Below the pieces are notes generated by a model, which did no database searches, had not been told where the DNA came from, and was given only the letters and a program-made list of their open reading frames with translations. From contig NZ_JAALFH010000062.1 of assembly GCF_011058255.1 (NCBI RefSeq), forward strand, positions 146,376-210,375: a stretch of 64,000 bases of DNA, given 5' to 3'. The position numbers and the translations under genes were made by a program. Source of the stretch: Thioalkalivibrio sp. XN8. GTDB lineage: Bacteria; Pseudomonadota; Gammaproteobacteria; Steroidobacterales; XN24. Shown here one piece after another: positions 9,625 to 59,506 of the stretch (the first letter of the stretch is position 1; the number at the start of each line of letters is the position of its first letter).

Positions 9625-11779
9625 CTGGTCCTTCCTCCGTGGCATTGCCGCCTCCTTGCGTCCTGGCGAACGACGGCGCCATGAACTGGCCCGTGTCGCC
9701 CGTCCCGTACTCCACCAGCCGCGCCGGGAAACGCAGCTCGAAGCGCGTCCCTTCGCCGGGAGCGCTTCTCACCCGCACCTCCCCGCCGGCGGACTCGACG
9801 AACTGGCGCGCCTGGTAGGCGCCGATGCCCATGCCCTTGCTCCCCTTGGTTGAGTCGAAGGGCTTGAACAGCCGCTCGCGCAGGAACGCCTCGTCCATGC
9901 CCTCGCCGTCGTCCTCGACGGCCACGACCAGCGCGCCGCCCTCGAGCGTGGCCTCGATGGTCACGCGGCCGCCCGGCGGCGTCGCGTCCTGGGCGTTGGT
10001 CACGAGGTGCCCGAGCACGGCCGCGAAGCGCTCGCGGTCCACGCGCAGCCTGAGTGTCGCATCGGCACAGCTTGCCGTCGGCGCCGGGTCGCGGTCTGTG
10101 TGCCGGTTCACGATCTCGAGCATGATGCGGTGCACATCGACCCGCTCGACCAGGTTCGCGCCCTGGCCCCGCTTCAGCTGCTCGAGGAGTTTCTGCATGC
10201 GGTCCACGGAGTTGGCGACGGTATCGAGGGTGTCGTCGATGAATTCCGGATCGTCCCGGTACTTGGCGGCATTGCGCACGACCAGGGACTGCTGGGCGAT
10301 GACGTTCTTGAGGTCGTGCATGATGAAGGCGGCGAAGCGGTTGTAGGCCTCGAACTGGCGGCTCTCGGCCAGCAGGCGGTCGGCCTCGGCCTGGGCCAGC
10401 ACCGCGGCGACCTGCATGCCGGCGATGCGGAACAGGTCGATGTCCTCGTAGCTCAGGTGGCCGACCAGCCGCGGCGAGCGGATCACGACCAGGCCCCAGA
10501 GCTGCTCGTCCTTGAGGAGCGGGACGATGAGTGCGGCAGGGCCAAGGTCATCCAGCCAGTTCGGCGCCACGAAGTTCGGGTGGGATTCGGGGTCGTTCCG
10601 GGCCTGCGCGAGGTCGATGATCCAGCGGCGGTCGGCGAGGAAGCTGACCAGCAGGTCGTCGGTTGGGAGGTGGTGGGGACAGTCCCGGGGACTGTCCCCA
10701 GGAGGGGCGATCTCGGCGGCCAGCACGTAACCGCCGGGCTGGCGGTCGGTGGAGCGGATCCACAGCGCGCCGCCGGCGCCGTCGGCCAGCTTGATCATGG
10801 CGTCGAGGCTGCGTTGTTCCAGCCCCTCCGCCGGGTTGCCCTCGCTCAGGCGCTGCGTGAGGTTGATCCATTCGCGCCGGTAGTCGTACTTGGCGCGGTA
10901 GAAGTGCTTGGCGATGAAGACGCGCAGCTCGGCGCGCGCGCCGGGCGACAGCACGATCCAGCCGAGCAGGATGGCGGCGCCGAAGAAGAAGGCCGCCTGG
11001 AGCACGACGCCCCACTCGCCGCCTGCCACGCGCAGGCCGTAGCCGGCCACGGCCATCACCACGAGGTAGACGCCGATGCCGACGAGGCTGGCCGTGTAGA
11101 AGGCGACGTGGCGGGAAATGAACACGTCGACCGAGAGCACTTCCTTGCTGCGCCCGGCGGCGAGGAGAATCAGGGGCGCCGCCAGGAAGGCGATGTAGCC
11201 GCGGGCGAGCCAGAGCTCGGCGTGGATGCCGCGGAACAGGAGGCCGTGGGAATACAGGAACAGGTCGTAGGCCAGCAGGCCGCCGACGCCGAGGATGAGC
11301 GGCAGGACCGGGCGGCGCAGCTCGAGCTTGAGCGCGCGGTAGAACTGCTCGAGCAGCACCAGGCCGGCGATGGCGGTCACGAGGCCGGTGGTGACCAGGG
11401 TGCGGATGACCTGCGGGACCGGGTCGGCGGCGGCCGGGAGGAAGATGGTGAGCAGGCCGTAGACGAGCACGAAGGCCGCGGGGGCCAGGCTGGCGAAGTG
11501 CTTCGTGAGGCCGGCGACGCCCTGGCCGGCCGGGGTCAGGCGGGCGAGGAAGGCGAGCCAGGCGGTGTTGCGGAGGATCTCGAGGACGCCGACGAGCTGC
11601 CAGTGCTGGGGACTGTCCCCAGGGAAGGCGGCGGCGGCGGCCCAGGCGGCGCTGAGGCCGGCGGCGATGACGAGAAGCCCGCCCTGGAGCCGGCCCCGCC
11701 AGCTGGTCAGCATCAGCAGCGCCAGCAGGGCGAAGGCGATGGCGGCCAGTCCGTAGCCCAGGGTGCCGATCAGCGTCAT
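9617..11779 (-). CDS. prsK: PEP-CTERM-system sensor histidine kinase PrsK
   Basis: A 720-residue inner-membrane kinase. The N-terminal half is a multi-helix membrane sensor (roughly eight or more segments to about residue 290), then a GAF-like domain (about 310-460), a phosphorylation helix with His 488 in FIMHDLKNV, and an HATPase domain with N (TNAQDA), G1 (DDGEGMD) and G2 (GMGIGAY) boxes. It is expected to phosphorylate PrsR, encoded downstream with an eight-base overlap. Two family A repeats are translated inside it: one in the membrane region (AFPGDSPQHW, 11608-11620) and one in the GAF-like region (PPGDSPRDCPHH, 10675-10699). Both keep the frame. AGAGGA precedes the ATG. Confidence 0.92.
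10675..10699. repeat. Family A repeat A1, inside prsK
   Basis: Two inverted cores, GGGGACAGTCCC and GGGACTGTCCCC, fused without the middle palindrome. Translated in the GAF-like part of PrsK. Confidence 0.9.
11608..11620. repeat. Family A core A2, inside prsK
   Basis: Single core GGGGACTGTCCCC, translated in the membrane region of PrsK; could be a decayed copy. Confidence 0.75.
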
Positions 11780-11839
11780 GCGTGCCGGGTCCTCTCGGTT
11801 AGCCTGTCATTGTCGCTTTGGGTGGTTTTGGGAGTGTGA

Positions 11840-11882
11840 CTTGCGTCGCATTATCGCAAGATTTCTCGACGCTACCGTCGAG
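11840..11882. promoter_or_regulatory. Paired inverted repeats upstream of prsK
   Basis: Two dyads lie 60-100 bases upstream of the prsK ATG: CTTGCG (11840) with CGCAAG (11855), and a perfect 7-bp arm pair CTCGACG/CGTCGAG (11865-11882, 4-base loop). They could be operator sites for the divergent promoters of prsK and the RAYT element, or a decayed family B hairpin in the case of the first. No convincing -35/-10 pair accompanies them. Confidence 0.3.
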
Positions 11883-11899
11883 TTTGTTGACACCTCTGG

Positions 11900-12003
11900 G
11901 GTCGGACCGACTTAAGTAAATGAAATCCATAGATTTCGGGTCTCCAAACCACCCCCATGGGCGCCTTACGTTACACGAAACCCCTGGTTTCCTGTCGCGT
12001 AAG
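11900..12003 (+). repeat. Family B unit B1 (box then hairpin)
   Basis: Box GGTCGGACC at 11900-11908, followed 65 nt downstream by an imperfect 39-nt hairpin (11965-12003) with arms CTTACG/CGTAAG at the base and CGAAACC/GGTTTC near the loop. Its 3' foot reads into AAGGAG, the ribosome binding site of the transposase that starts at 12017. Confidence 0.8.
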
Positions 12004-12016
12004 GAGCCCCGCCCCT

Positions 12017-12787
12017 ATGACCCGCGCCAACCGCGTCTACGTCCCCGGCCACGTCTGGCACCTCACCCACCGTTGCCACCAGAAAGACTTCCTGCTCGGC
12101 CACCGCGAGGACCGCCGCCGCTGGGTCTACTGGCTGTACCAGGCGCGACGCCGCTACGGCATCTGCGTGCTGAACTACATCGTGACCCGCAACCATATCC
12201 ACCTCCTCGTGCGCGACCGCGGCGAACGAGAGATCGCCGCGTCCATGCAGCTCGTCGCCGGCCGCACGGCCCAGGCCTACAACCAGCGCATGGGCCGAGT
12301 CGGCGCCTTCTGGCAGGACCGTTACCATGCCACGGCGGTGGAGTCGGACGGCCACCTGGTCCGCTGCATGAGCTATATCGACCTGAACATGGTCCGCGCC
12401 GGCGCAGTCGCGCATCCGAGCGAGTGGCCCGAGAGCGGCTTCCGGGAGATACAGCGCGGCAAGAGTCGCTACCGGATCATCGACATCCCTGCAGTGTGCC
12501 GCCTCACCGGCGCCTCCTCGCCGCGGCACCTGCGCGACCGGCTGCGCCGCTGGACCGAGCATCAACTGGCAGCCGGCCGGTTGCGCCGCGAGCCGGCCTG
12601 GACCGAGAGCCTCGCGGTCGGGCCGGGCGAGTTCCTGCGCCGGGTTCACCGAGAACTGGGCGGGCCGAGCCGGGACCGCGAGCTGATCCACGCCGACGGC
12701 CTGACCTGCCTGCGCGAGCCGAGTGTGCCCTACGTCCTTGACAGGCCGCCTTACGTGACACAAAAGAGCCTAAACTGTGTCACGTAA
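12017..12787 (+). CDS. REP-associated tyrosine transposase RAYT-B (TnpA_REP, Y1 HUH family)
   Basis: A 256-residue single-strand DNA nuclease of the IS200-like Y1 class. The metal-binding HUH motif is NHIHLL (His 60 and His 62) and the candidate nucleophile is Tyr 88 in AQAYNQRMGR, followed by the family motif GAFWQDRYHA and SYIDLNMVRAG. RAYTs are domesticated or self-limiting transposases that recognise and move REP hairpins. ATG 12017 is chosen because AAGGAG precedes it by ten bases; an upstream in-frame ATG at 11957 would read through hairpin B1. The last residues (PPYVTQKSLNCVT) and the TAA stop are encoded by hairpin B2. Translation could be limited when B1 folds, because the hairpin foot overlaps the start of the ribosome site. 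Confidence 0.88.
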   Translation: MTRANRVYVPGHVWHLTHRCHQKDFLLGHREDRRRWVYWLYQARRRYGICVLNYIVTRNHIHLLVRDRGEREIAASMQLVAGRTAQAYNQRMGRVGAFWQDRYHATAVESDGHLVRCMSYIDLNMVRAGAVAHPSEWPESGFREIQRGKSRYRIIDIPAVCRLTGASSPRHLRDRLRRWTEHQLAAGRLRREPAWTESLAVGPGEFLRRVHRELGGPSRDRELIHADGLTCLREPSVPYVLDRPPYVTQKSLNCVT

Positions 12788-12853
12788 GGGCCTTTAAACG
12801 GCCTCCTGGCGCCCCAATATCTCGTAGAAACAACTCTCTACGACGGTCCGACC
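12750..12853 (-). repeat. Family B unit B2 (inverted)
   Basis: Hairpin at 12750-12788 with nearly perfect arms (CTTACGTGACACA paired with TGTGTCACGTAAG); box GGTCCGACC at 12845-12853, the box end lying exactly 65 nt from the hairpin end. It supplies the stop codon of RAYT-B, and its box lies ten bases before the cbpA start codon. Confidence 0.85.
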
Positions 12854-12863
12854 CGGATAGAGC

Positions 12864-13823
12864 ATGGATTTCAAGGACTATTACCAGACCCTCGGCGTCG
12901 AACGCACCGCCAGCGCCGACGAGATCAAGCGCGCCTACCGCAAGCTGGCGCGCAAGTACCACCCGGACGTCAGCAAGGAGCCGGACGCCGAGGCGCGCTT
13001 CAAGGAAGTGGGCGAAGCCTACGAGGTCCTGAAAGACCCCGAGAAGCGCGCGGCCTACGACCAGCTGGGCGAGAACTGGCAGGCCGGCCAGGAATTCCGC
13101 CCGCCCCCGGGCGGCGGCGGCTACTACTACTCTGGCGGCGGCCCGGACATGGGCGGCGCCGAACGCGAGTTCGGCGGCTTCTCCGATTTCTTCGAGGCGC
13201 TGTTCGGCCGCGGCGGCATGGCGGGCATGAGCGACGCCGGCCCGCGCGCCCGCGGCTTCAACTTCCGCCAGGCCGGCCCCATGCGCGGCGAAGACCAGCT
13301 CGCCCGCGTGCAGATCACCCTGAACGACGCCTACCAGGGCGCCAGCCGCACGCTCGAAGTGCGCGGCCCCGCCGGCGACAAGCGCAACATCCGCGTCGCC
13401 ATCCCCAAGGGCGTGACCGCGGGCCAGCGCATCCGCCTGGCCGGCCAGGGCCTGCCCGGGGCGAATGGCGGCGCCGCCGGCGACCTGTTCCTGGAGGTGG
13501 ACTTCGCGCCCCATCGCATCTACGAAGTCGAGGGCCGCAACATCCTCCTGACCCTGCCGGTCACGCCATGGGAGGCCGCGCTCGGCGCGACCATCAACGT
13601 GCCCACGCTCGGCGGCCGCGTCGAGCTCAAGATCCCCGCCGGGTCGCAGTCCGGCCGCCGCCTGCGACTCAAGGGCCGTGGCCTGCCCGGCAACCCGCCC
13701 GGCGACCAGATCGTGACCCTGCGCATCGACACCCCGCCCGCGGACTCGCCGTTCGCGCGCACCCTCTACCAGGAGATGCGCGAGAAGGTCCCGTTCAACC
13801 CGCGCCAAGAGCTGGAGGGCTGA
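12864..13823 (+). CDS. cbpA: Curved-DNA-binding protein CbpA, DnaJ-class co-chaperone
   Basis: A 319-residue type II J-protein. The J domain (1-70) carries HPD at 33-35; a Gly/Phe-rich segment (about 85-130) follows, then two DnaJ C-terminal beta domains with no zinc-finger cysteines. It stimulates DnaK ATP hydrolysis and, as CbpA, binds nucleoid DNA. The ORF is followed three bases later by the modulator gene, the classic cbpA-cbpM arrangement. The ATG lies ten bases after the family B box, so the upstream leader is repeat-derived and only a weak ribosome site (GATAGAGC) is visible. Confidence 0.93.
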
Positions 13824-15493: not shown

Positions 15494-16837
15494 TCACACC
15501 CGAATGCCGGCCCAGCCCCGCCGCATCCAGAACCAGGTGAACACGCCCGCCATCCCGGCGCGGTAGCCGACCTGCAGGCACCAGATCACGGCGAGCCCGA
15601 ACCCGAGCACCGGCCCCACCAGGTAGGCCAACGGCAGGAACAGGCCCCACTGCGCCACCACCGCCACCTTCATCACCCGCTTGTTGTCCCCGGCGCCGAG
15701 CAGGTTGTGCATCATCACCATCCCCAGCCCCTCGACGGCCATGCCGATGCCGACCAGGCGCATGGGGAAGGTCGCCACGGCCATCGTCTCGGGGTCGTGG
15801 ATGAAGATGCCGAGCAGCAGCTCGGGCCAGATCGCGCCGGGCAGGCCGAGGAGCGCGAGCGCCACCATGCCGATGCGCGCCACGTCCCAGCCCCAGCGCG
15901 CGGCATCTTCCGGGTCGTTGCGGCCGAGCGCCTGGCTGACCAGCGTGGAAGCGGCGAGCCCGAGGCCGAGGCCCGGCAGCAGCGCGACCAGGGTGAGGTT
16001 CAGGATCACCGTCGCGGCCGCCATGTCGCGGGTGCCGACCTGGCCGATGATCCAGAAGGTGAGCACGAAGCCGGTGGAGAAGAACAGCTGCTGGATGCCG
16101 GTCGGCAGCGACAGTCGCAACAGCGTGGCGACGTGGGCGCGGCTCGGCGCGCGCTGCAGGAAGCTGGCGTCGCGCGCGTGGCGGAAGCCGAGGAAGATGT
16201 AGATCGTGAAACCGACGACGGTGGACAGCGCGGAGGCGATGCCGGCGCCCTGCACGCCCAGCGCGGGGGCGCCGAGGTTGCCGAAGATGAGCACCCAGTT
16301 GAGGAAGATGTTGCTGGCGTGCATGGCGATCAGCGTGCCCATGTACAGGCGCGGCAGGTCGATGCCGTTCCAGTAACCGCGGAAGGCGAAGTTGGCGCCC
16401 ATGAAGAACATGGCGAGGACGCGGGCCTGGAGGTAGGGGACGCCCTGCTCGATCACGGCCGGGTCGCTGTTGAGGTAGGGATAGATCGTGGGGATGGCCC
16501 AGTATAGGATCGCGGCGAGCGGCGGGGCGACGCAGACGAGGACCAGCAGGCCGCCGTTGAGGGCGACCGCCGTCTGGTCGTGCAGGCCCTCGCCTTTGCG
16601 GCGGGCCGCGATGGTCTGGACGCCGGTCGAGAGGCCGAGCAGCAGGGCCATGAACATGAAGTTGGCGAAACCGCCCAGGCCCACGGCGGCGAGGGCCGCG
16701 TCGCCGAGGCTGCCGACCATGGCCGTGTCGACCAGGTTCATGATGTTCTGCGAGACCATGCCGCCGACGATCGGCAGCGCCAGCAGCAGGATCCGCTTTC
16801 CCCTCGGGTCGGACCACGGCAACACTATGTTCTGCAA
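15494..16837 (-). CDS. MATE-family multidrug/solute efflux transporter
   Basis: A 447-residue inner-membrane transporter with about 12 hydrophobic segments and two MatE halves (about 15-175 and 235-400); the conserved LVDTAMVGSLG motif follows the first helix. The family exports cationic drugs or metabolites in exchange for Na+ or H+. The N-terminal leader MQNIVLPWSDPRG is partly encoded by the box of family B unit B3 (16807-16815 reads as WSDP on the minus strand), so the first dozen residues may be recently acquired. No nearby regulator is obvious; the gene stands alone. Confidence 0.9.
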   Translation of the reverse strand: MQNIVLPWSDPRGKRILLLALPIVGGMVSQNIMNLVDTAMVGSLGDAALAAVGLGGFANFMFMALLLGLSTGVQTIAARRKGEGLHDQTAVALNGGLLVLVCVAPPLAAILYWAIPTIYPYLNSDPAVIEQGVPYLQARVLAMFFMGANFAFRGYWNGIDLPRLYMGTLIAMHASNIFLNWVLIFGNLGAPALGVQGAGIASALSTVVGFTIYIFLGFRHARDASFLQRAPSRAHVATLLRLSLPTGIQQLFFSTGFVLTFWIIGQVGTRDMAAATVILNLTLVALLPGLGLGLAASTLVSQALGRNDPEDAARWGWDVARIGMVALALLGLPGAIWPELLLGIFIHDPETMAVATFPMRLVGIGMAVEGLGMVMMHNLLGAGDNKRVMKVAVVAQWGLFLPLAYLVGPVLGFGLAVIWCLQVGYRAGMAGVFTWFWMRRGWAGIRV

Positions 16838-16910
16838 GCTTTTTCCTTCGGAAAACCGGCGTCCAGTGGCCCTTGCGTGACAGGAAATGCCGGGTTTCGT
16901 GTCATGTAAG
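16807..16910 (+). repeat. Family B unit B3
   Basis: Box GGTCGGACC at 16807-16815 and 39-nt hairpin at 16872-16910, first base to first base 65 nt. Arms CTTGCGTGACA and TGTCATGTAAG pair imperfectly. The box is inside the start of the MATE gene. Confidence 0.8.
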
Positions 16911-16956
16911 GCGAGTCTCGCAGTTCCCGGCCCGGAACTACATACACCAATGGTCG

Positions 16957-17059
16957 CTTACGCGACATGAATCCGCGGGTTTTGTGTCGCGCAAGCCCGT
17001 TTCGAGCCGCGTTTTTGAACGATTTCTTCTAAATAACAATTAGTTGGGGCGGTCCGACC
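16957..17059 (-). repeat. Family B unit B4 (inverted)
   Basis: Hairpin 16957-16995 (39 nt; CTTACGCGACA paired with TGTCGCGCAAG) and box GGTCCGACC at 17051-17059; the offset is 64 rather than 65. The intervening bases are AT-rich. Confidence 0.78.
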
Positions 17060-17185
17060 AACCCGGCCATCCTACCCGCGTCCGCCCGTGGGAACTTCTC
17101 AGCCGGATTTGAATCCATAAGGTTCGTACGGAGCGAATCCCCCAACGTTCCCCCAAAATGCGTGTTCCCCCACGCGACCCCTACG

Positions 17186-46880: not shown

Positions 46881-46906
46881 GGGGACTGTCCCCAGGCTAT
46901 GTCCCC
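46881..46906. repeat. Family A repeat A20, leader of RAYT-A
   Basis: Core followed by AGGCTATGTCCCC; its last base is followed by the transposase ATG. Confidence 0.88.
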
Positions 46907-47518
46907 ATGCCGAGAAAACCGAGACAGCTCCATGGCGGCCGCTACTACCACGTGATCAACCGCGGCAGTGCGCGCCAAACCGTCTTCCACGACACCAAGG
47001 ACTACCAGGCCTTCCTGGATTTCATGCGCGCGGCCCAGGAACGGGTGCGCATGGGCATCCTGGCCGTCTGCCTGATGCCCAACCACTTCCATTTCCTGGT
47101 TCGCCCGGCCGGCGACAAGGACCTGAGCGATTGGATGCACTGGGTGATGACCAAGCAGGTGGCGCGCCATCGCTGGGTGCACCAGACGAGCGGCCACGTC
47201 TGGCAGGGACGGTTCAAGCCGTTCGAGATCCGGACCGACGGTTACCTGCTGATGATCATGCGCTATGTCGAGCGCAACGCGCTGCGCGCCGCGCTGGTGG
47301 AGCGGGCGGAGCACTGGCCGTGGGGCAGCCTGGCGTGGCGCTGTCGCGGCGGCGCGCCCTTCGAGCTCTTGGATCCGCCGGCCGGATTGCCCGCCCGGTG
47401 GGTCGAGCGCGTCAACCGCCCGGAGAATGCTCTAGAGCTGAAGGCCGTCCGGAACAGTGTGCGGACGGGCGCGCCGTTGGGGGTGGGGACTGTCCCGGGG
47501 ACAGTCCCCAAAACTTAG
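46907..47518 (+). CDS. REP-associated transposase RAYT-A (Y1 HUH family)
   Basis: A 203-residue protein with HUH motif PNHFHFLV (His 60 and His 62), the segment SGHVWQGRFKPF and YVERNALRAALV typical of RAYTs. The helix before GHVW, where the nucleophilic tyrosine is usually found, reads TKQVARHRWVHQT and has no Tyr; either another tyrosine serves or the enzyme is altered. ATG 46907 follows repeat A20 directly, with no clear ribosome site. The C-terminus (VGTVPGTVPKT) is encoded by repeat A21. The stop overlaps the convergent lipoprotein gene by four bases. Confidence 0.85.
   Translation: MPRKPRQLHGGRYYHVINRGSARQTVFHDTKDYQAFLDFMRAAQERVRMGILAVCLMPNHFHFLVRPAGDKDLSDWMHWVMTKQVARHRWVHQTSGHVWQGRFKPFEIRTDGYLLMIMRYVERNALRAALVERAEHWPWGSLAWRCRGGAPFELLDPPAGLPARWVERVNRPENALELKAVRNSVRTGAPLGVGTVPGTVPKT
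47485..47509. repeat. Family A repeat A21, 3' end of RAYT-A
   Basis: Fused core pair translated as VGTVPGTVP just before the stop. Confidence 0.9.
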
Positions 47519-53205: not shown

Positions 53206-53290
53206 GGGGCGCGTCCGGATGTTGGAGTAAGGAATTCTTACTACGGTCCGAGCCGGCTTGCAATCGCGGCGTCGAGAGCCTGGGCGAGCC

Positions 53291-57845: not shown

Positions 57846-57951
57846 GGCGTCCTCCCCTGGGCCGCCTTCAGTCGGCGGCCCGTCCCCGCGGTCGATTCTG
57901 CGGCCGGCGGTGGAGAGGGTCAATTCAGGCAGCTGCACGTCGCGGCAGTGG

Positions 57952-58055
57952 CTTACATGACACGAATCCGGGGGTTTCGTGTCACGTAAGGGCCGAATCG
58001 GCGTGGCTTTCCGCTGGTTTCTCTCGTAAAAACAGTAGCCTAGGTCGGTCCGACC
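57952..58055 (-). repeat. Family B unit B5 (inverted)
   Basis: Hairpin 57952-57990 (39 nt; CTTACATGACACGAA paired with TTCGTGTCACGTAAG) and box GGTCCGACC at 58047-58055; box end to hairpin end 65 nt. The box encodes the last residues of Ugd. Confidence 0.87.
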
Positions 58056-59380
58056 CGCTGCCCGCGCCCGATACCGTAGTAGGTGAAGCCCAGCCGCTGC
58101 ATGTGGTCGGGGTCGAAGACGTTGCGGCCGTCGAAGATCACGGGCTCGGCCAGCGCTTCCTTCACCGCATCGAAGTCGGGGCTGCGGAACTCCATCCACT
58201 CGGTCACCAGCGCCAGGCAGTCGGCGCCCTCGAGCGCCTCAGCGGCGTTCTTGCACAACACCAGGTCCGGCCGGTCACCGTAGATGCGCCCGGTTTCCTT
58301 GCGCGCCTGCGGGTCGTAGGCCCGCACTTTCGCGCCCGCCTCCCACAGCGACTCCATCAGCACCCGGCTCGAAGCCTCGCGCATGTCGTCGGTGTTGGGC
58401 TTGAAGGCCAGGCCCCAGATCGCGACGGTCTTCCCAGCGAGGTCGCCGCCGTAGTGCGCGCTGATCTTGTCGAACAGGACGCGTTTCTGGCGCTCGTTCA
58501 CGGCCTCGACGGCCTCGAGAAGCAGCGCCGGGAAGCCGGCCTTCTGCGCCGAGTGCGCCAGCGCCTTCACGTCCTTGGGGAAGCAGGAGCCGCCGTAGCC
58601 GGCGCCCGGGTAGATGAAGTGGTAGCCAATGCGCGGATCCGAACCGATGCCGAGGCGGACATGCTCGATGTCGGCGCCGAAGCGCTCGGCCAGGTTCGCC
58701 AGCTCGTTCATGAAACTGATCTTGGTCGCCAGCATGGCGTTGGCCGCGTACTTGGTCAGCTCCGCCGAACGGATGTCCATGGCGATGAGGCGGTCGTGCT
58801 GGCGATTGAAGGGCTCGTAGAGCAGCCGCAATAGCTCGGTGGTGCGCGGGTTGTCGGTGCCGACGATGATGCGGTCCGGGCGCATGAAGTCGTCGACCGC
58901 GGCGCCCTCCTTGAGGAATTCCGGGTTCGAGACCACGTCGAAGTCGATCGCCGCGCCGCGCTCGGTGAGGGTGCGGTCGATCTCGGCCTTCACCTTGTCG
59001 GCCGTGCCGACCGGCACCGTCGACTTGTCCACGACGATGCGGTAGTCCTCCATGTGCTCGCCGATGCTGCGCGCGACGGCGAGAACGTGCTGCAAGTCGG
59101 CCGAGCCGTCCTCGTCCGGCGGCGTGCCGACGGCGATGAACTGGAACAGGCCGTGGGCCACGCCCTGGGGAATGTCGGAGGTGAACTTCAGCCGGCCGGA
59201 CTCGCGGTTGCGGGCCACTACCGCCTCGAGGCCCGGCTCGAAGATCGGGATCTCGCCGGCGTTGAGCCGGTCGATCTTGTCCTGGTCGATGTCCACGCAC
59301 AGGACCTGGTTGCCCACGTCCGCCAGGCAGGCGCCCGTGACCAGGCCGACATAGCCGGAGCCGAAAATCGTCACTTTCAC
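58040..59380 (-). CDS. ugd: UDP-glucose 6-dehydrogenase
   Basis: A 446-residue enzyme oxidising UDP-glucose to UDP-glucuronate with two NAD+. N-terminal Rossmann [14 protein letters not shown], Lys/Asp region [19 protein letters not shown], catalytic Cys 266 in [10 protein letters not shown], and C-terminal UDP-binding domain with [15 protein letters not shown]. The last five residues (RVGPT) and stop are encoded by the box of unit B5. Flanked on both sides by family B units whose boxes point inward. Confidence 0.96.
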
Positions 59381-59402
59381 CGCAATATCCCTTCAGGTTC
59401 GG

Positions 59403-59506
59403 GGTCGGACCGTCTCAAGTAATTGAAACGCGACGGATTATGGCAGAAAAACCCGGTGGATTGAGGGCTTACGTCACACAAAACGCCGGTATTCGTGTCA
59501 CGTAAG
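59403..59506 (+). repeat. Family B unit B6
   Basis: Box GGTCGGACC at 59403-59411 and hairpin 59468-59506 (39 nt; CTTACGTCACACAAAA against TTCGTGTCACGTAAG); offset 65. The box lies 23 bases before the ugd start, so the ugd leader or promoter contains the unit. Confidence 0.85.

Follow-up and report, generated by a model that had tools for sequence, protein, structure and literature searches.

Composite inverted ends frame the transposase gene RAYT-B and overlap its ribosome site and its stop codon

Our analysis of a 64,000-nucleotide stretch of the Thioalkalivibrio sp. XN8 genome (the window) confirms the preliminary description of the transposase gene RAYT-B as framed by its own end units. 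RAYT-B sits between two inverted family B units, each consisting of an outer core GGGTCGGACC, about 55 nt and a hairpin. We consider it likely, judging from the sequence comparisons, that RAYT-B encodes the transposase of a small element whose ends are rigid and composite, and that its cramped frame would reuse the recognition ends for the Shine-Dalgarno sequence and the stop codon. The data establish the anatomy, a rigid spacing in relatives, a covarying stem and purifying selection on the protein. The element consists of the following parts:

11899-11908, plus strand: left outer core GGGTCGGACC (read from the letters; 23 of 32 leaders have this core near their start)
11963-12003, plus strand: left hairpin, with feet CTTA (11965-11968) and TAAG (12000-12003); its stem covaries over 32 units
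12000-12006, plus strand: Shine-Dalgarno-like TAAGGAG; its opening TAAG belongs to the left hairpin as 3' foot (paired according to the fold prediction)
12017-12787, plus strand: RAYT-B coding sequence, 256 amino acids and stop, an HUH/Y1 transposase (Pfam Y1_Tnp, fold match to 4er8, dN/dS against G002)
about 12748-12790, plus strand: right hairpin, with feet CTTA (12750-12753) and TAAG (12785-12788) (repeat comparison, spacing tests)
12785-12787, plus strand: stop codon TAA within the 3' foot of the right hairpin (letters read, right-end comparison)
12845-12854, minus strand: right outer core, reading GGTCCGACCC on the plus strand and GGGTCGGACC on the minus strand (repeat comparison)

The left foot (12000-12003) leads into AAGGAG (12001-12006), which is followed by ten bases and the ATG of RAYT-B (12017-12019), and the stop TAA lies inside the foot TAAG of the right hairpin. 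On both points the coordinates agree with what had been described. The further claim that the ends supply the ribosome site as well as the stop stands for the stop and for the beginning of the ribosome site, but only AAG of AAGGAG lies within the left hairpin as originally drawn. The remainder is paired in the window sequence because flanking GGGC/GCCC lengthens the left stem. An in-frame ATG is also present upstream at 11957; the start was assigned to 12017 since residue M1 is invariant in an alignment of 25 proteins. A scan for sigma-70 promoters over 11750-12900 gave no hit. The ends contain a TTGA motif, which was rejected as a -35 box because it is present in units without a gene too, and we claim no promoter from it. 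Just 5' of the element, at 11865-11882, a terminator-like hairpin with a T-rich tail points toward it (the terminator scan gave one such hairpin against 0.5 expected in shuffles).

The protein itself belongs to the Y1 transposases. Y1_Tnp (Pfam) is present in RAYT-B and in 25 of the 25 aligned members, which match no other Pfam family at E 0.01. Residues H60, H62 and Y120, i.e. the HUH motif and the catalytic tyrosine of Y1 transposases, are invariant in the alignment. The predicted structure (mean pLDDT 85.2) has helices after the Y1 core, and its fold is nearest to 4er8 (E 2e-7), which is TnpAREP bound to a REP hairpin. All 25 members share Y-x-D-x-N-M; the clade carries neither Y---NP, given in PMC6006769 as the signature of TnpAY1 class 2 (TnpAREP), nor Y---Q, that of IS200 transposases (class 1.1). 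Against the NCBIfam model REP_Tyr_transpos RAYT-B scores 69.9 bits, under the curated cut-off of 80. A comparison with the orthologue in G002, a syntenic relative, gives dN 0.140 and dS 0.919, and the protein is under purifying selection between the window species and G002. There the gene is kept at the same place (79% identity), whereas the left inner foot has decayed to CACG and its pairing is lost. The TAA of the right foot is gone as well, and as a consequence the G002 frame runs on for about 109 codons.

Family B units were located with a covariance model built from six hairpins and run against the 3.1 Mb genome (G000). The 20 matches represent ten units, every one matched on both strands, and all ten lie on the 238 kb contig that carries the window (C27, 83-235 kb). 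By locus these are the RAYT-B element, two inverted dimers without a gene and four solitary units, seven in all. With seven loci randomly placed, the chance of such gathering is about 2e-7. The second gene-less dimer is found at 83.0-83.3 kb of the contig; the window holds the following units besides the element:

16806-17060, no single strand: gene-less inverted dimer of family B units, with two hairpins and both outer ends (covariance model, repeat comparison)
57950-58056, minus strand: solitary family B unit (covariance model, repeat comparison)
59402-59506, plus strand: solitary family B unit (covariance model, repeat comparison)

A decayed family B right end without a hairpin is also seen at 53220-53255. 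G000 and G002 have units at the same two places (window 58056 and 59402) beside the same gene (675, 2028 and 2284 of L161 in G002), and the hairpin subfamilies at these shared places differ (TTACG in G000, TTAGA in G002).

Covariation of the stem was measured in three genomes of the genus, which together supplied 32 units. Cells with changes on both sides numbered 36 (15.9 in shuffles), and the covariation score was 0.352 against 0.178; none of the 500 shuffles was as high in either case. Slid versions of the stem alignment reached at most 10 cells and a score of at most 0.167. Two of the five measures were not above shuffles (110/500 and 74/500), and kinship among the units can inflate the remaining ones. 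The inner foot reads TAAG in 12 of 15 compared units, at offset 100 or 101 from the core; the other three read CAAG, AAAG and CACG, the last being the G002 leader.

Layouts like that of RAYT-B are found in distant bacteria. The protein is matched in 84 of 196 related genomes, mostly by distant matches, and a scan of genome contigs yielded 30 loci. The 24 aligned relatives show 43-79% identity and derive from Gammaproteobacteria, Desulfobacterota and other groups, mostly from metagenome bins. Duplicate loci (L001, L003, L004, L006 and L009) were left out of the counts. The tblastn score cut was 95 bits for the foot and unpaired-probability counts on 35 leaders, and 130 bits for the counts of core position, end plan, stop position in the right ends, flank repeats and opening cost. 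The 35 leaders take in the window itself and two distant families (L066 and L013, 34% identity); the foot count on them also omits L065 (leader cut) and L012, L056 and L057 (start not in the match). A strict foot finder overlooked clear hairpins, and spacing-based tests were used instead.

These tests reveal a rigid plan. Allowing one mismatch at most, 23 of 32 leaders carry the outer core 95-135 nt 5' of the start and 27 of 32 carry it within 300 nt; among random 300-mers from the same loci, 96 of 3011 contain it. With the outer core as reference, CTTA (or GTTA) starts 64-66 nt further in, and TAAG (or TAAC) comes another 30-33 nt on. Twelve of 23 left and 13 of 28 right ends follow this plan exactly, and no end does so in any of the ten control offset windows on either side. 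Looser matching, to a shortened core with two mismatches, was rejected; since the controls outnumbered the matches, it yields no conclusion. A second covariance model (R2) performed weakly in distant relatives, with 17 matches at E up to 10 over 40 loci. Even so, L034, L044, L058, L059 and L005 (there at 2196-2256, on the strand of the gene) each have one of these matches immediately 5' of the start codon.

On the gene side, exact feet are found 9-16 nt 5' of the start codon in 13 of 35 leaders and are missing in 22; 0.54 were expected, and 200,000 simulations gave at most 5. The Shine-Dalgarno-like string starts inside the foot in eight of these 13 leaders and directly after it in two more (L005 and L008). 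Whether orthologues keep the ribosome site beside a family B hairpin had been proposed as a check, and for the clearest relatives the answer is positive (10 of the 13 exact-foot leaders). Fourteen of the 35 leaders contain no Shine-Dalgarno-like string of 4 or more bases. Among hairpins with a foot score of 7 or 8, GA or GGA comes after the inner foot in 8 of 13 on the left against 4 of 19 on the right (one-sided Fisher p 0.025), which hints modestly at tuning confined to the gene side.

On the right side, the foot provides the stop wherever its TAA is in frame. Eight of 28 right ends use the foot TAA as stop (the window, L005, L007, L011, L012, L040, L041 and L045); in the others the stop falls in another part of the hairpin (5), past the hairpin (12) or before it (3), whereby for 9 of the 28 ends, with a foot score of 6 or less of 8, the place of the hairpin is assumed from the spacing. 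Stops in or past the hairpin make up 25 of 28, so that the gene usually overlaps its own right end. In the 12 ends where the stop falls beyond it, the hairpin is coding.

The Shine-Dalgarno consensus is TAAGGAGG. From the covarying stem, the fixed core distance, the gene-less copies and the protein family, we infer that the transposase recognises the composite ends (outer core, then about 55 nt, then the hairpin with its CTTA and TAAG feet); it would bind the hairpin as single-stranded DNA. The hairpins are best read as reused transposase recognition sites, because their stems covary and copies without a gene occur. The overlap of gene and ends would then arise from compactness. The left foot TAAG doubles as the first four bases of the consensus, and as it forms the first half of it, a start codon close behind the end would gain a ribosome site cheaply. 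Likewise, the TAA of the right foot serves as the stop whenever it is in frame.

It might be argued instead that the overlap exists as a translational brake, in which the left hairpin forms in the mRNA, hides the ribosome site and limits transposase output as in IS200. The preliminary description had suggested such a restriction of initiation, to be examined by structure prediction of the leader. In the predicted fold of the RAYT-B leader AAGGAG is indeed fully paired and not open. With 75 nt upstream, the opening cost is 12.95 kcal/mol (shuffle mean 5.83; 0.3% of 300 shuffles reach it), and with 118 nt it is 13.65 kcal/mol (shuffle mean 5.06; 0 of 300). It also tops 15 compared units (13.60 against 1.11 to 10.97), which would suit selection for a brake in the window species too. 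Precedents exist: according to PMC12594629 a stem-loop sequesters the ribosome site of the IS200 transposase, and PMC8450116 reports for ISPpu9 a 5'UTR structure that buries the ribosome site and whose weakening raised a reporter 26-fold. Both resemble RAYT-B: the ribosome site of the transposase is predicted to be masked by a 5' hairpin (and the IS200 enzyme, too, is of the Y1 type). In RAYT-B, however, the hiding structure is the repeated end unit of the element, and the hiding is not conserved in relatives.

As a rule across leaders, the hiding is not supported. At either length, only 3 of the 20 leaders with a Shine-Dalgarno-like string, RAYT-B's among them, cost more to open than 95% of their shuffles. 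Medians are 3.09 against 3.05 in shuffles (75 nt) and 4.37 against 2.95 (118 nt), with 12 and 14 of the 20 leaders, respectively, above their own shuffle mean. The mean unpaired probability of the 11 exact-foot leaders with a Shine-Dalgarno-like string equals that of shuffles (0.402 against 0.397), and for 10 other leaders it is 0.558 against 0.478. Even for RAYT-B (0.164 against 0.320) 6.7% of the shuffles are as low, and in G002 the pairing of the foot is lost. Given the three leaders of 20 and the loss of both foot and stop in G002, the hiding is read as a feature of the window species. The suggested restriction of initiation is thus partly supported: the predicted burial of the RAYT-B site is strong, and throttling by an RNA fold fits the window species better than its relatives. 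Judged by these predictions, occlusion of the ribosome site in RNA is not conserved in the RAYT-B family. The extended stem of the window species should lower translation initiation, as a local trait and not as a property of the family. As an explanation of the overlap, we regard the brake as unlikely. The preliminary description further proposed that translation would depend on the repeat ends, but 22 of 35 leaders have no exact feet; its suggestion that gene and ends may thereby be kept together would agree with how often they overlap.

Autoregulation, in which the transposase would bind its mRNA at the hairpin, or else the end in DNA, and so repress its own synthesis, making gene and ends an autoregulated pair, appears far less probable still; recognition hairpin and ribosome site do physically overlap in 10 of the 13 exact-foot leaders, yet this overlap is missing in many relatives. 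Adjacency of gene and repeats by mere chance is barely conceivable and was rejected on the control offsets of the end plan: although exact feet occur in just 13 of 35 leaders and some leaders look unrelated, only 0.54 would be expected, and the spacing is fixed on both sides with none at the control offsets.

The reading of RAYT-B as the gene of a small element with composite ends invites comparison with known systems. TIRtrons, in which Di Nocera et al. 2013 (PMC3733652) marked repeats overlapping the 5' or 3' end of some genes, were tied together with TIRYT to subclass 2.1, which has a C-terminal HTH domain, by Quentin et al. 2018 (PMC6006769). Of RAYT-B and its aligned relatives, the Pfam comparison shows Y1_Tnp alone, and helices come behind the core in the RAYT-B model. 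As described in PMC3733652, they likewise have a Y1 gene between terminal inverted repeats at about the same distance from the gene, repeats that overlap the gene ends, and repeat copies elsewhere in the genome. RAYT-B lies, as a TIRtron does, between terminal inverted repeats other than GTAG REPs. In contrast, its outer core GGGTCGGACC is one position off GGGGWSAS, a motif that PMC3733652 gives as common to only some TIRs (the window end is GGGGTCGG, with G for A at position 7). Furthermore, each RAYT-B end has a second element, the covarying hairpin at a fixed distance, and the clade has Y-x-D-x-N-M in place of Y---NP.

RAYT (TnpAREP) systems show another set of likenesses. Nunvar et al. 2010 (PMC2817692) report REPs that lie near the rayt stop codon or immediately after it, and REP units that in some species are gathered within at most two hundred kilobases of the rayt gene. 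Shared with these systems, as presented in PMC2817692 and PMC8266576, are a domesticated-looking Y1 transposase, cognate hairpin repeats, inverted dimers, units gathered near the gene and repeats close behind its stop codon; the fold match to 4er8 is a further likeness. The RAYT-B units differ in that GT[AG]G is absent beside the hairpin foot (32 aligned units, by eye) and in the extra outer core of the ends. A literature text search for the outer core and related palindromes, covering a minority of subscription journals, returned PMC3733652, through the word TIRtron, and eight papers whose titles point to other subjects.

The second transposase gene of the window, RAYT-A (in the region 46881-47518), has its likely ATG at 46907 and its stop at 47516-47518. 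It starts 13 nt after and ends 7 nt after palindromes of its own (GGGGACTGTCCCC and GGGGACAGTCCCC). For the comparison with REP_Tyr_transpos its sequence ran from 46928, seven codons past the likely start. GGGGAC[AT]GTCCCC has 108 sites in G000 and 4 in G001; five other genomes of the family have none.

A further observation concerns the host DNA outside the ends. At 15 of 54 ends (13 loci) it is tandemly repeated with the first core bases, counting at least six flanking bases plus GG repeated within 60 nt. Shuffles predict 0.17 such ends, and elsewhere in the same loci 25 of 3549 GGG sites qualify. Examples are L007, L035, L036, L040, L043, L045 and L048, sometimes with longer partial ends; the RAYT-B element of the window has no tandem flank repeat.

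In G001 several old copies also appear to have had their outer core replaced in situ. Here GGGGTC[TA]GACCCC takes the place of GGGTCGGACC at the sites orthologous to 11899, 16806, 58056 and 59402 (776-790 and 1127-1139 of L157, 708 of L158, 565 and 1952 of L159). The G001 sites of 16806 and 59402 hold homologous units bearing a GGGGTCTGACCCC-type core, and the RAYT-B locus a remnant of a RAYT gene (by eye) between GGGGTCTGACCCC-type palindromes. G001 has 44 sites with GGGGTC[TA]GACCCC, 27 of them on one contig, and there are none in G000 or five other genomes of the family. One G001 dimer (L134) retains the old core.

Tentatively, RAYT-B might represent an undescribed Y1 clade (Y-x-D-x-N-M) with rigid composite ends, whose mobility leaves a tandem flank scar X-GGG-X-GGGTCGGACC; this is possible, but we hold it with reserve. 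Against this reading speak the RAYT-B element without a flank repeat, the G001 dimer that keeps its old core, and earlier knowledge of REPIN clusters in Pseudomonas that are tandemly arrayed along with their flanks (PMC3116915).

Summarizing, a DNA signal of a mobile element would here have become an expression signal of its own gene, TAAG being both the end and the start of the ribosome site and TAA the stop. The rigid end plan offers a concrete substrate for biochemical tests on this transposase clade. The tandem flank repeats, which can be counted in genomes, may have been left by the mechanism; if the scar is real, it would suggest that the end is nicked and copied repeatedly, in contrast to the clean excision and insertion of IS200/IS605.
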